Shown in pieces: positions 2,478-49,790 of a stretch of DNA of 57,500 nucleotides (within the stretch, counting starts at the first letter, position 1; each line of letters starts with the position of its first letter). A program made the translations under genes and the position numbers. The notes beneath the pieces were generated by a model that worked only from the letters and a program-made list of their open reading frames with translations, was not told where the DNA came from and did no database searches. The stretch is from positions 617,501 through 675,000 of the forward strand of contig JAZDSV010000002.1 of NCBI GenBank assembly GCA_036784855.1, given 5' to 3'. This DNA comes from Aphelidium insulamus. Its lineage: Eukaryota; Aphelidiomycota; Aphelidea; Aphelidiaceae.

Positions 2478-4454
2478 TTATTTGTGCACCTTTCGTGACA
2501 CGTACATATCTTCAAAGCGGCCATCGGTTAGCACGCTGTCTGCTACAAAACTAAATCCGGCAAACATGTCCTTCTCTTTCAGAAATTCGGATGATTCTAC
2601 GGCTGGCGAGTCAACCACTGGCATCGATGTGAAGTTGCTGTGAAAGTTGTTGACGTCTTCGGCCGAAGTCTGCAGGAGTTCATTAAGCAGGTGTACATAA
2701 GAGCATCATCCAAATAACCAACCACTACTGGTGTTATAGGCGGCTGGCACTGGCGGCGAAGCAATTTGTCCCAATTGATCGACTTGAAGAACCGATGCTT
2801 GCGTATTGGAGTCGCGTCATTCGGACCGTAGCCAAGCCGCGCCACCGCGCGTTTACGCATAAGCTTGGTCAACAAGTCTTTGGCGTCCGCGCTGAGATAG
2901 TGCGGCAAAGTAAGCTTCTTGTTCATGATCATGTCCATGGTCTTTTTGCGATTGTTGGATGTAAACGGTGGCTGGTGGCGTTATATGTTTATAAGCACGC
3001 ACTTTATCATCAACCCATACTAACCGCGCCAGTCATGATGTCGTAGGAGAGGGCGCCTAGTGACCACCAATCCACTGATTTATCATATGGCTGATTTGCC
3101 AGCACCTCGGGAGCCTGGTCATTAATTATAATATTTGACACCCAGTTCCATGCATGTTAAACGTGCCATGTACTCCACTGTGCCACAAACTGTGGTAGTC
3201 TTGTCGTCATCTGATAGCGATACTTTGCTGAGACCAAAGTCGGTCAGTTTGACATGACCTGTGATATCAACATATTGGCATGCGTGTAGCAATATTACGA
3301 ACGGCACAACCGTCAATGTCCAGGAGGATGTTTTCAGGTTTCAAGTCGCGATATATGATCCCAAGTCCGTGCAGGTGCTCCACAGCCATTACCAGCTCCG
3401 CCATGTAGAACACGGCCACATCTTCCAGCAGCATCTTTTGCTTCTCCAAGTACATAAACAGCTCACCGCCGGGCGCGTAATCCAGAATTAAATACAGTTT
3501 CGAGTCCTGTAAGCTAGTCAGTATGACAATTTGAACAGCACGCTCAAAACGCACAGTTTGAAACGCGTAGAATAACCGAACAATGAATGGATGTCGAACT
3601 TCTTCTAAAATGTTGCGCTCTGTCCGCGTGTGCTCTCTGTCCTTGTCGTGCAGAACAATGTGAGCCTTTCGCAGGACCTTCATCGCAAAATACTGATCCT
3701 GGTCCACGCCGGTTGTCTTTTGTACCAGGAAAACTCTGTTGTGTCATAGGGGCACAGTAATGGTACAATCAATGTCCTACTTTCCATACGCGCCTTTTCC
3801 AACAACTCGAAGCAGGCGAAAATCAGACTTGGAGACGCGCTTTGCAGAAGTAGACGCAGTCGGAAATGGTGGGACCTTTGATTGTTCTTTGCGTGAGAGT
3901 ATCGCCTTGGACGGGCTACTTGTGGCGGCAGTGGCATCATCATGTTTCACGGGCGACACCAAGTCAATATCCAATATGGGCACTATAAGATCGTGTGGAG
4001 TGCCAAACGTGCCGGGCGATACGCCCAAATCCTCCACCGCCACTACCGATACTGAGTCATCCGTGGCTTGTGCATCTTTTGCCGAGCCACTTGCGCCACT
4101 GACCACTCCATACCCCTCGGCGTCCAGCTCATATCGCGCACCCACTCCAGACTCATCAGTTTCGCTGCTACCATCACTATCATCATCATCGCCGTCGCCG
4201 TTGTGTGTCCTTCCATCGTCCTCATTGGAACCATGACTCAATGCAGAGCCCGCGGTGCTAGCGGTGTACTCTGAGTGGTGGATGTTTCTCGACCCAAGCC
4301 GTCTGTCAGAAGAGAGCCGGTGCCCACGCCGACCAGCAGCAGCATCATAATCGTAGTAGCCATCGTCCTCGTCGAAATGGAACATTGGTAAACACAGAGA
4401 TGGCATATCCCCACGCGCGGCAAGTACACCCACACAAGCGCGTGTGCACGTCAA
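2478..4454 (-). CDS. AGC-family ribosomal protein S6 kinase
   Basis: Serine/threonine kinase of the S6K class. The N-terminal ~210 residues are acidic and serine-rich ([13 protein letters not shown]), as in S6K1. The kinase domain follows: glycine loop VVGKGAYGK, lysine in YFAMKVL, catalytic loop [12 protein letters not shown] loop LTDFGLSK and T-loop [14 protein letters not shown]. The C-tail carries a turn motif (MPVVDSP) and a hydrophobic motif (FAGFSF), the sites used by TOR and PDK1 in this family. At least six introns; the one splitting YM|APE at 3115-3166 must start with GC (GCACGT), because only that junction keeps the frame and the invariant APE. Stop TAA at 2478-2480. The start could also be the internal Met near 4403. 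It shares a divergent promoter with the helicase gene. Confidence 0.88.
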
Positions 4455-4696
4455 CGCCTCTTCGTTAATTAAAGAGCCACAAAGACACGGTCAGCAGATA
4501 ACAGCCAGGGTTGACTGACACGAGCCGGGCGTGTAATACCCAGGCAGGGTCAGGGTTAGGGTTTGCCCAGTCAACAGACAAGTAAAGAATTAGCACCAGC
4601 CAGGGTCAGGGTCGCCCAAAATAATCGACATTGAAAAGCGCGAGAAGCGCGCAAAGAAGGAAAATTGTTCAATTATCACCATTCGCACAGTACAAC
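4455..4696. promoter_or_regulatory. Divergent promoter between S6 kinase and DDX21-type helicase, with telomere-like G tract
   Basis: 242 bp between two divergent start codons, so it must hold both promoters. It contains a GGGTCAGGGTTAGGGTTT tract near 4546-4563 and a second CAGGGTCAGGGT near 4602-4613. The first embeds TTAGGG units as in fungal and animal telomeres. Whether these bind a telobox-type factor is unknown. Confidence 0.5.
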
Positions 4697-47200: not shown

Positions 47201-49790
47201 TTGCCACATCGGCACTGGAGTCCTTGATCAGTCGGAAGATTATGGTACGGATCTGCATGCGTAAATTATGCGCAATTAATGGCTATGTGCGTACATCTTG
47301 CAAAGTTTTTAACACATAAATGGCCGCTTGTGCGACTTGAAGGTTGCTCAAGGCCGTAGCAAGATTTTTGCAAACGCTCAATCGAACTCCGGAGTGCAAA
47401 TCAATGGATAGTTTTGCGAAACAGTCAAATATCTCAGTCATTAGGCCTGATCGATCCTGCAACAGCTTCTCTCGTTAAATTATCAAATTCAAGAACATCA
47501 TTAATATACCTCGGAATGTCCGATTATCAAGCTGCACAGATCGGCCAGTAATATTTTTCGCTCAGGGAACTTGCTCTCTGCCAACTCTACGCAGGCAGTC
47601 CATACAGAACCAACCGAATCGAAATTTAATTTGTCGGCATCACTTGCGCTTTGAGATATAATAATGGAACAGCCGTCAATAAGTAGGCGTCGCTGCTTCT
47701 CGTCGGGCTTCTTTATCAAATTGAGAAGCGAGCTGATTAACTGCGTTCTAACGGCAATGTCGGGATGGTTGACTGCCGCGGTCACAATCAGCGGTAATAG
47801 TTCCTTGATAAAGTTAAAGCCAAATATACTGCATTTTTGCGCTTGCCTCGCGTCGATTGAGAACGACGGTGGGAATAATCCGTGGAAGTATGAGGCCTAG
47901 TGCATGGATCGTTGAATGTGTCGTGGCGTCCTTGAGAAGCAGCGCAAGCTCGGACGTTTCATCGGCGGAAGCAACGGAATGCAAAAGTGTTGGCATACGA
48001 CTCATGAGCCGTTGCACCGGAAATAAGCCACCACTTGTTCGACGAGGGGGCAGAAGATGCTGCGGGTGTAAGTATTAATCGAAAGCAAAATGAAAGGAAC
48101 ATTACCGGCAATTGACCAGTTGGTTTTGATGATGCATTATCCACAGGCGAAGAAGGCTTCAATACTTCCTTTGGTGGCCGAGTCGACGAATTTTGCACCA
48201 ATGAGGCGCCATTAAAATTGTTTCCAAGCGAATTGTCGAGTTCATTGCTAACTAGCTCCGCCATTCGATCAATGCTAACTTGGGATGACGAGACTTCAAG
48301 GGGAGCTGAATGACGCCCAGAACGTACGCAGCTTTCCACCTGTTGAGCAACAACATTTGAATCGATCAGCGACGGCCTTGTCTCGGCACATTTGTAATGT
48401 CGGTACAAGATCAGTAGACCCGGTGGCGGCGTCACAACTTTATCCGACACTCCCAGCACATCTTCCCAGTCCTCAAGGTCCTGATCGTCATTTTCATCAC
48501 CAAAAGTTAGTGCAGTCATCTTGTAGCCATGCGTCTGCAAATAATCGTGTACTCTACGGCTCATTGAATAAGAATATTTTTGAAACTGAGATCAACACAT
48601 ACAAAAAATTTAGGACACGCAATTCTTGTGGGCTCGCTTGTCCAGCGGAAAGCAGGGTGGAAATATTGCCATTCAGCCGTCTGTCTGAATTTGAGACAAC
48701 GGACGAAGGCCTGGTGAGATTGATTTGACTGCCGCAGTCCGCCGCTACACTACGCGAAAGAACAGTCCCTTCCTGTGACAGTACATCGAATTCGGTGCCG
48801 AGACGTGACGCGTATACTCTAGCCTTGGGCACTGCTCGTCCACCATGCGATGACGCGATCACCGTATCGGTATCATCAGCAGAGTCTGCAACATAATGAA
48901 ATCAAATCAGAGTCAACAAAATAACAAGATATACTTCTCATGAGATTGCCCAGGCGAGTTCGTAACTTTTCCACGGACTCTTTTGTCTGCCGCAACTCAT
49001 ACTCCAGAACTATATGTACCGCAGAAAATATTATAGTTAACAGTGTAATGTAGCAAAACATACCGGCAATGTACTCGTCCTTTTCACGCGCAATGTCCCC
49101 CTGCTCCGACGCCGATACCGCAGACCGCCCCTCCTCGAATGTTGATATAGTGTCACTGGCATTGAACGCGGTTTCCACTTGCTGACCGCGCACTACATAA
49201 AACCATCATACTCTCTGTTGGCATGGTGTATACATACGTAGCATGTTGGCAGCAGGACCGGCGGCATAGCGCCCTCTGCCCTCAAAGTTCTTGTGGTTGG
49301 CAAAGTATTCTCGCAGTTCACGCACATCCACCCCATCCTCGCTCAGTTCCGCAAACAGCTCCAAGGCCGTCAACAAGTACTCCTTGGTGAGCAGATAGTG
49401 AACGATGGCCTTGATACTGGGCGGTTCCGCTGTGGCAGAGGGCAGCTTGTGCTGCAGACCCGATGACACTGGAGTGACTGTGCGCGTCGTTTGCAGCGGC
49501 TGCAGCGGCTGCTTGACAGCATCCATTGCCCGCATGACGGGATGTTCTATGCCCAGCTTGTCCTGGTCAATGTCGAGCCTGTCGGTATCGTCAGCCGAGT
49601 ATTCTGGGTGGCGTGGAGGGTCTATCCGAGATTCCAGAGAGTTGGTGGCGGTACGACTGACGCCTAGAGCATCGTACACCTCCGAAACACCACCACCAGG
49701 CCGGGCCTCCGGTGGTTGATGCAGTGTCGGTGCAGTGTCCATGGCCGAGGCGGATGGAGGCCGTGCTGTTGGCGGCTCGGCGCTGCTCAT
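44300..49790 (-). CDS. RELCH: RELCH (LisH, coiled-coil and HEAT-repeat protein)
   Basis: Large multi-exon gene. The N-terminal LisH-like segment SIKAIVHYLLTKEYLLTALE...ELREYFANHKNFEG matches human RELCH. A coiled coil (LEYELRQTKESVEKLRTRLG) and a second helix, RVLNFL|VHDYLQTHGYK with FGDENDDQDLEDWEDVLG (human FSDENDDQDFELWDDVG), follow. HEAT repeats run to about 45650 (KFPERKILLADLC; FRASFIIPSLLRWATVEL). The C-terminal tail from 45600 to 44300 (about 400 residues, Ser/Asp-rich) is longer than in human. Intron 47804-47846 begins GCAAGC (GC-AG) inside the conserved NRRE|ELLPLI. Human RELCH links recycling endosomes to the Golgi for cholesterol transport. An upstream in-frame ATG at 49829 is possible. 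Confidence 0.88.

Follow-up and report, generated by a model that had tools for sequence, protein, structure and literature searches.

Why should a genome begin an unusual share of its introns with GC rather than GT? The question is raised by a 57,500-nucleotide (nt) stretch of the Aphelidium insulamus genome (contig JAZDSV010000002.1, positions 617,501 to 675,000 of the forward strand), which we call the window. The organism is a single-celled parasite of algae and close kin of the fungi, to which the aphelids are the sister group. An earlier note on the window had listed eight GC-AG introns in six genes, estimated that 8–10 of about 50 introns were of this type, and proposed relaxed or altered donor recognition by U1 or U6. 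Judged from genomic DNA throughout (gene models, reading frame and protein homology), GC-AG introns are real and unusually frequent here, at an estimated 4–10% of introns. As argued below, they are probably ordinary U2-type introns, a known tolerated variation in which the mismatch at +2 is offset by pairing at +3 to +6.

GC-AG introns in the window and in conserved domains

The eight intervals first listed in the window are as follows.

3115..3166, minus strand: S6K-like AGC kinase intron, 52 nt, donor ATG^GCACGT, splitting EYM and APE
10276..10321, minus strand: LMBR1-like intron, 46 nt, donor CAG^GCAAGA; frame support alone
12030..12079, plus strand: ATG22 intron, 50 nt, donor CTG^GCAAGT
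21647..21700, plus strand: NDUFAF1/CIA30 intron, 54 nt, donor CAT^GCAAGT
34673..34717, plus strand: CAP-D3 intron, 45 nt, donor GAG^GCAAGT; frame support alone, coding bonus required
34902..34945, plus strand: CAP-D3 intron, 44 nt, donor CAG^GCAAGA; frame support alone, coding bonus required
36045..36090, plus strand: CAP-D3 intron, 46 nt, donor TGC^GCAAGT; modest homology support
47804..47846, minus strand: RELCH-like intron, 43 nt, donor GAG^GCAAGC; frame support alone

All eight begin with GC and end with AG on the coding strand, and their donors are, as had been read, mostly of the GCAAG type or GCACGT (GCAAGT 4, GCAAGA 2, GCAAGC 1, GCACGT 1). It had also been claimed that any GT choice at these sites breaks the frame or a conserved block. 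This is clear by protein family for S6K, ATG22 and NDUFAF1, holds modestly for CAP-D3 at 36045, and for the other four comes down to the reading frame.

These sites were scored with our own semi-Markov gene finder, for which GT introns were the sole training set and which allows intron lengths of 36–90 nt (longer introns fall outside all counts); "margin" denotes gene-model support in nats. With the GC splice, the S6K-like protein scores 206.5 bits against Pkinase, compared with 177.7 in the best parse without it (margin 2.8 nats). ATG22 scores 161.8 bits when spliced and 98.5 as the fragment that terminates in the retained intron (margin 11.3 nats), and CIA30 in NDUFAF1 scores 117.6 and 108.8 bits with and without the GC splice (margin 10.3 nats). 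For CAP-D3 at 36045 the Cnd1 scores are 71.5 and 65.2 bits, but this pair is not clean, because the first sequence had a GT intron taken out by hand and a neighboring GT splice is missing from the second as well.

In the LMBR1-like gene, at CAP-D3 34673 and 34902, and in the RELCH-like gene (margin 4.9 nats), the frame closes or residues are inserted when the GC splice is omitted. The LMBR1-like gene splits when its intron is masked, with a margin of only 0.7 nats; its protein scores 31.2 bits, below the family cut-off of 31.9, and so offers no independent homology test. The coding signal of CAP-D3 is weak, its three listed introns are predicted only after a coding bonus, and a Pfam scan of the stretch around 34673 and 34902 matched no family. 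Searches for homologous proteins were empty for window positions 51680–54439 (E <= 1e-10) and for the CAP-D3 model (E <= 0.001).

Kinase domains provide a view in which conserved motifs, rather than the gene finder, place the introns. A profile search found 140 kinase matches in the genome, and 40 short stretches with a split or stop-containing kinase domain, a subset of such matches, were fetched before their donors were inspected. Read against kinase motifs, they contain 41 GT and four GC introns (three of them certain) and no other class. The share is thus 4/45, or 8.9% (exact interval 2.5–21%; p = 0.001 against 1%), or 3/44 without the probable case (p = 0.01). The four are these.

AGC kinase (L036): GC intron at Y-R/D, where the paralogues L037 and L039 carry GT in the same codon
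Nek kinase (L046): GC intron at SL/VGTPYY
CK2 alpha (L073): GC intron at K/ALDF
MRCK-like kinase (L063): probable GC intron, donor GCGCGT; not certain, since translation could run through its 45 nt

The spliced proteins align without gaps, L036 with Sgk1, L073 with CK2 alpha and L046 with Nek7.

Four further pairs outside the window point the same way: CYP51 (L010; p450, 46.6 bits with the GC splice vs. 39.6, margin 1.8 nats), Chk1 (L027; Pkinase, 198 vs. 188.7 bits, margin 0.4 nats), a class III cyclase (L028; 203.8 vs. 186.5 bits, margin 1.6 nats) and a GAF protein (L028; 54.3 vs. 45.4 bits). In the first three of these, the gene model by itself scarcely separates GC from the alternative. 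The GT alternative in CYP51 would add two residues, and the junction is gap-free within ~10 residues in 112 of the 115 spanning matches among the best 120 homologues. Thus, all seven clean Pfam pairs (CYP51, Chk1, cyclase, GAF, CIA30, S6K and ATG22) prefer GC.

The kinase search also turned up two matches, C32:5763-6512 and C161:31887-32636, with the same profile coordinates and scores of 88.4/88.4 and 108.4/107.3 bits, which suggests a duplicated or haplotypic piece. In another kinase frame (L060) there is one in-frame TAA with an apparently conserved C-terminal part beyond it; this is possibly a pseudogene.

Share of GC-AG introns in a larger sample

The share was estimated in a sample comprising the window and 20 ten-kilobase stretches on seven contigs (257.5 kb in total, 51.0% G+C). 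It is not a random draw, because the contigs came via the window and searches for small nuclear RNAs (snRNAs). Among the best 120 of 2374 matches to the sample's CYP51, the best named ones are Amoeboaphelidium protococcarum (68% identity), the EukProt label Partr (67%), which we take to be Paraphelidium tribonemae, and Paraphysoderma (57%), and some others fall at 65–70%; this places the genome with the aphelids and not with ordinary fungi. The assembly analyzed has 169 contigs and 17.95 Mb; that published (BioProject PRJNA902644) has 274 scaffolds, 18.9 Mb and 52.05% G+C (PMC10608142), compared with ~40% G+C in Amoeboaphelidium protococcarum and A. occidentale. The paper also mentions transcript data for strain X-134_O14, and there is a study of zoospore expression (PMC11767097).

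One estimate comes from the likelihood taken over all parses. Relative to GT alone, and with a GC-type motif, adding a GC class gains 126 log units (at 9%), a GA class 32 (at 3%) and a GG class 1 (at 0.5%); with a GT-type motif the gains are 93, 50 (at 5–7%) and 10. When GA is held at 2% and GG at 0.5%, the likelihood is highest at 9% GC, whether the window, the other 20 loci or the two together are scored, with 2-unit support of ~6–12% for the whole sample and ~4–16% for the window. A GC share of 1%, about the level that the earlier note took as typical of fungi, is worse by 7.9 log units in the window, 23.2 in the other loci and 31.1 in both. Given that GT-AG introns make up 98.7% of introns in fungi, 98.3% in animals and 97.9% in plants (PMC7072748), the claim that the GC-AG share here lies well above that of fungi is borne out.

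Discrete predictions were made under several settings. In the neutral run the gene finder is uninformed about the +2 base and applies a single motif to all donor classes; in another run a GC-type motif is common to GC, GA and GG, with GC weighted twofold.

Neutral run, all introns (n = 378): GT 271, GC 46, GA 41, GG 20
Neutral run, margin >=2 nats: GT 193, GC 21, GA 9, GG 9
Neutral run, margin >=5 nats: GT 86, GC 7, GA 1, GG 0
GC-type-motif run, margin >=2 nats: GT 265, GC 21, GA 3, GG 0
GC-type-motif run, margin >=3 nats: GT 234, GC 16, GA 1, GG 0
Four trained classes: GT 307, GC 31 (19 GCAAGT), GA 25, GG 9
Seven trained classes: GT 283, GC 30 (21 GCAAGT), GA 14, GG 7, AT 52, TT 28, CT 20

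Over margins of 2 to 8, uncorrected GC/(GC+GT) is 5–8% in the GC-type-motif run and 6–10% in the neutral run; once the mean of GA and GG is subtracted, the former becomes 4–7%. The AT, CT and TT classes were dropped as AT-rich noise, with no donor motif visible by eye, and branch-point modeling was dropped because the motif is too degenerate.

Several of these figures speak against a large excess. The control classes are not empty, either in the neutral run at a margin of at least 2 nats or in the runs with four and seven trained classes, and the GA class by itself gains 32–50 log units. Moreover, GCAAGT occurs 233 times in the sequence, 2–2.6 times as often as GAAAGT (107) and GGAAGT (90), so that some GC calls are false. 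At low margin the surplus of GC over GA and GG is modest, and it is the motif (see below) that distinguishes GC. Because the controls are not zero, we put the share at 4–10%.

In the window itself the four-class model predicts 74 GT, eight GC, four GA and three GG introns (CAP-D3 being counted up to 34524). Five of its GC introns are among those listed above and three are others, at 20006 (dubious), 21483 and 32492. The earlier figure of 8–10 in about 50 was thus right in that GC-AG introns are unusually common, but the share is about half that guessed, mainly because the denominator was too small. The further candidates in the window, all on the plus strand, are given here.

21483..21563, plus strand: NDUFAF1, ambiguous, donor AGT^GCAAGT; margin 1.0 nat
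32492..32544, plus strand: CAP-D3 N-terminal part, donor ACG^GCACGC; margin 4.0 nats; a GT parse (32506-32558) exists
36428..36471, plus strand: CAP-D3, weak, donor GCGAGG; in the GT+GC parse, frame model alone
36745..36791, plus strand: CAP-D3, weak, donor GCATTT; predicted only with the coding bonus
37058..37107, plus strand: CAP-D3 near the C-terminus, donor GCAAGT; in the GT+GC parse, frame model alone

There is no equally good GT donor at the better-supported GC sites, whereas 21483, 10276 and the CAP-D3 sites are singly indecisive. Elsewhere in the window, two neighboring minus-strand stretches of similar sequence (~16860–17130 and 18470–18720) look by eye like a tandem duplication. In the whole sample, the stop codons of predicted genes scoring >40 are about equally frequent (TGA 30, TAG 26, TAA 25). 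Amoeboaphelidium protococcarum, by contrast, has been reported to read UAR as Gln (PMC5304391); in A. insulamus, TAG and TAA end genes about as often as TGA.

Donor motif, splicing machinery and possible causes

The clearest property of the GC donors is what follows the second base. In the neutral run AAGT occupies +3 to +6 in 20 of 46 GC introns, 17 of 271 GT introns (p = 8e-10) and 3 of 61 GA and GG introns together (p = 2e-6); sorted by +2 base, introns with AAGT number 17 for T, 20 for C, three for A and none for G. Part of this difference arises because GCAAGT itself outnumbers GAAAGT and GGAAGT in the sequence. GC donors match the +3 to +6 consensus at 2.95 of four positions on average and GT donors at 2.29. 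At a margin of at least 2 nats, +4 of the GT donors is T in 0.42, C in 0.27 and A in 0.26. GT donors being so loose at +4, a GC donor with AAGT and the usual GT donor offer U1 similar numbers of matches (means of 5.1 and 4.6 of eight, +2 excluded). Intron length does not differ between the two classes (medians of 52 nt for GC and 51 nt for GT).

The snRNAs found in the genome are those expected of a U2-type system. Four U1 copies all begin ATACTTACCTG (42–44 bits, under the Rfam cut-off of 69.5, with E ~1e-8). The single U6 copy found scores above its Rfam cut-off and has an intact ACAGAGA box, and each of four U2 copies has GTAGTA (one, L006, above the Rfam cut-off). A search of the genome for U12 RNA gave no match, although control genomes gave none either; the GC donors, mostly GCAAGT, are unlike the RTATCC-type U12 donor.

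We therefore think it probable that the GC-AG introns here are of the ordinary U2 type. At a GC donor, the canonical U1 5' end, AUACUUACCUG, would pair with one C-A mismatch at +2, and the loss there may be made good because +3 to +6 (AAGU) pair completely. Most GT donors in this genome, with U or C at +4, fall short of such pairing. Where +3 to +6 already reads AAGT, GT could drift to GC, and introns as short as these (~50 nt) may still be defined by their paired nearby sites. U1 picks donors chiefly by duplex stability, and the human U1 snRNP has a higher affinity for +2C than for +2A sites, perhaps via a protonated wobble pair (PMC4383343). The excess of GC over GA, and its coupling to AAGT, fit this behavior. 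On this basis the introns would be spliced efficiently, and weak selection, rather than a new factor, may have raised their number. Two results do not help this account. First, -1G is rarer in GC donors (0.52) than in GT donors (0.67) at a margin of at least 2 nats, so any compensation lies on the intron side alone. Second, the coding score is equal for genes with GC and GT introns (p = 0.31), which gives no sign of weak selection.

Exon sequences indicate how strongly the sites might be read. In 97 predicted coding sequences GTAAGT occurs three times where 14.7 are expected, and GTGAGT (12 vs. 27.7), GTAAGC (8 vs. 21.1) and GTAAGA (6 vs. 17.9) are also low, whereas GCAAGT (75 vs. 52.8), GCAAGC (83 vs. 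78.5) and GCAAGA (89 vs. 56.7) are not avoided. The avoidance is partly circular, because strong GT sites are called as introns by the gene finder, and unrecognized introns hidden in predicted exons may contribute to the surplus of GCAAGT. Since exons do not avoid GCAAGT, the GC donor seems not to be strongly recognized alone; GC sites give the impression of weak donors that function in their context rather than of a strong second signal. Generally relaxed donor recognition, as the earlier note had suggested, is not supported by exons that avoid GTAAGT but not GCAAGT. It should be noted that GTATGT (18 vs. 20.9 expected) and GTACGT (20 vs. 25.8), both among the commonest predicted donors, are hardly avoided.

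The best of the alternatives, though a doubtful one, is that one of the splicing proteins (U1-C, SNRNP27K, LUC7, Prp8 or another) has changed so as to relax the reading of +2, making GC a second standard donor class. Such a cause, RNA modification or U1 proteins, was suggested for Aureococcus and Micromonas pusilla, which have consensus U1 (PMC3033335). The A. insulamus genome contains U1-C, SNRNP27K, one LUC7 gene and a METTL16-type methyltransferase domain. The first 38 residues of U1-C (L035, minus strand) match the human protein without gaps and the zinc finger is otherwise well conserved, residue 28 being W (R in human, K in yeast). The yeast K28A change has been read as weakening the complex of U1 with the 5' splice site, yet growth is normal with it alone (PMC3985668). 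SNRNP27K (L034, minus strand) keeps RQYMN; the next residues, RKGGFNRP in human, are TKKHLLNRP here, and runs of proline and glutamine come after them. On the other hand, U1-C position 28 sits near the duplex backbone, U1-C makes no base contacts, and alanine there is harmless to yeast growth (PMC4383343). Plants carry Tyr at what we read as the same position (PMC8458698) and still have 97.9% GT-AG introns (PMC7072748), so W28 alone is a poor cause; nor would a second standard class be expected to go unavoided in exons, as GCAAGT does. A specific version, in which U1-C W28 and the diverged SNRNP27K tail, say, loosened the reading of +2 and +4 in aphelids and turned GCAAGT into a regular second class of donor in a genome of moderate G+C, is about as doubtful. 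If true, it would answer how some lineages with normal snRNAs accumulate GC-AG introns.

Loss of METTL16 was considered as a cause of the weak +4A and rejected, as the METTL16-type domain is present with its NPPF motif. In Saccharomycotina, +4A goes with METTL16 (PMC10581693); the GT donors here favor U or C over A at +4 despite the domain.

It is unlikely that the GC donors mark weak introns that are regulated, for instance across life stages, by retention or alternative splicing. In human, nematode and Arabidopsis, genes with alternative splicing have been reported to be enriched in GC donors (PMC2490688), but several of those described here lie in conserved domains, where retention would break or lengthen the protein. 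We consider it at least as improbable that most GC calls are gene-model artifacts. The concern is a proper one for an ab initio model built from DNA alone, in which decoy classes also gather introns, and in Heterorhabditis bacteriophora a GC-AG share of 8.9% fell to 0.8% after re-annotation (PMC5906903). Against this stand the homology-anchored cases (CYP51, Chk1, cyclase, GAF, CIA30, S6K, ATG22, AGC kinase, CK2 alpha and Nek) and an AAGT enrichment that is specific to the GC class. A push from GT to GC by high genomic G+C, the cause proposed in the case of Emiliania, Aureococcus and Micromonas, is very unlikely here: high GC-AG accompanies ~65–70% G+C in those algae (PMC3033335, PMC4028052), but A. 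insulamus has only 51–52%, and the correlation is weak outside the three species with the largest GC-AG shares (PMC3033335). Finally, we give almost no credence to U1 or U6 snRNAs altered to pair with GC donors, as the earlier note had proposed, because the four U1 copies found and the one U6 copy have canonical pairing regions.

Comparison with other genomes and significance

Like U2-type GC-AG introns elsewhere, those of A. insulamus combine a GC donor with an AG acceptor, strong AAG(T) at +3 to +6 and canonical U1; they differ in their higher share (~4–10% of introns). Higher shares are known from algae. In Emiliania huxleyi 135 of 241 curated junctions (56%) are GC-AG (PMC4028052), and the figures are 39.6% for Aureococcus anophagefferens, 22.2% for Micromonas pusilla and 7.7% for a Chlorella sp., the top three in G+C of 61 species (PMC3033335). 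A. insulamus resembles these algae in lying far above normal while keeping a consensus U1 5' end (as reported for the species in PMC3033335). It differs from them in G+C (51–52% vs. ~65–70%), and three of the four algal shares are much higher.

Two moderate cases are also known. Globodera cyst nematodes have ~3.5% noncanonical splice sites, based on RNA sequencing (PMC4901422); there, too, the rise in GC-AG is moderate and limited to a lineage, although Globodera is an animal, its share is somewhat lower, and it is supported by RNA. In Phycomyces blakesleeanus, from an early-branching fungal lineage, expressed sequence tags (ESTs) gave 446 GC-AG and 13,504 GT-AG introns, or ~3.2% (PMC2846911). 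Both Phycomyces and A. insulamus exceed 1%, Phycomyces with the lower share and by EST counts rather than an estimate from DNA. Among the matches listed in a literature search on aphelids with introns or GC-AG, none described abundant GC-AG introns in aphelids, and in the A. insulamus genome paper no word of the main text starts with "intron" (PMC10608142).

What we describe is thus a real but moderate enrichment of a known intron type, for which we found no earlier report in aphelids, in a genome whose snRNA pairing regions are normal. The abundance of GC-AG introns in algae has been called an enigma (PMC3033335). Because GC-AG is raised in A. insulamus without high G+C, this organism can help to separate the effect of base composition from that of spliceosome change. 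There is also a practical consequence. With ~3.4 introns per predicted gene (four-class model) and 4–9% of them GC, some 13–27% of genes would have at least one GC intron, and gene predictors that allow only GT donors may therefore break a sizeable share of A. insulamus genes.

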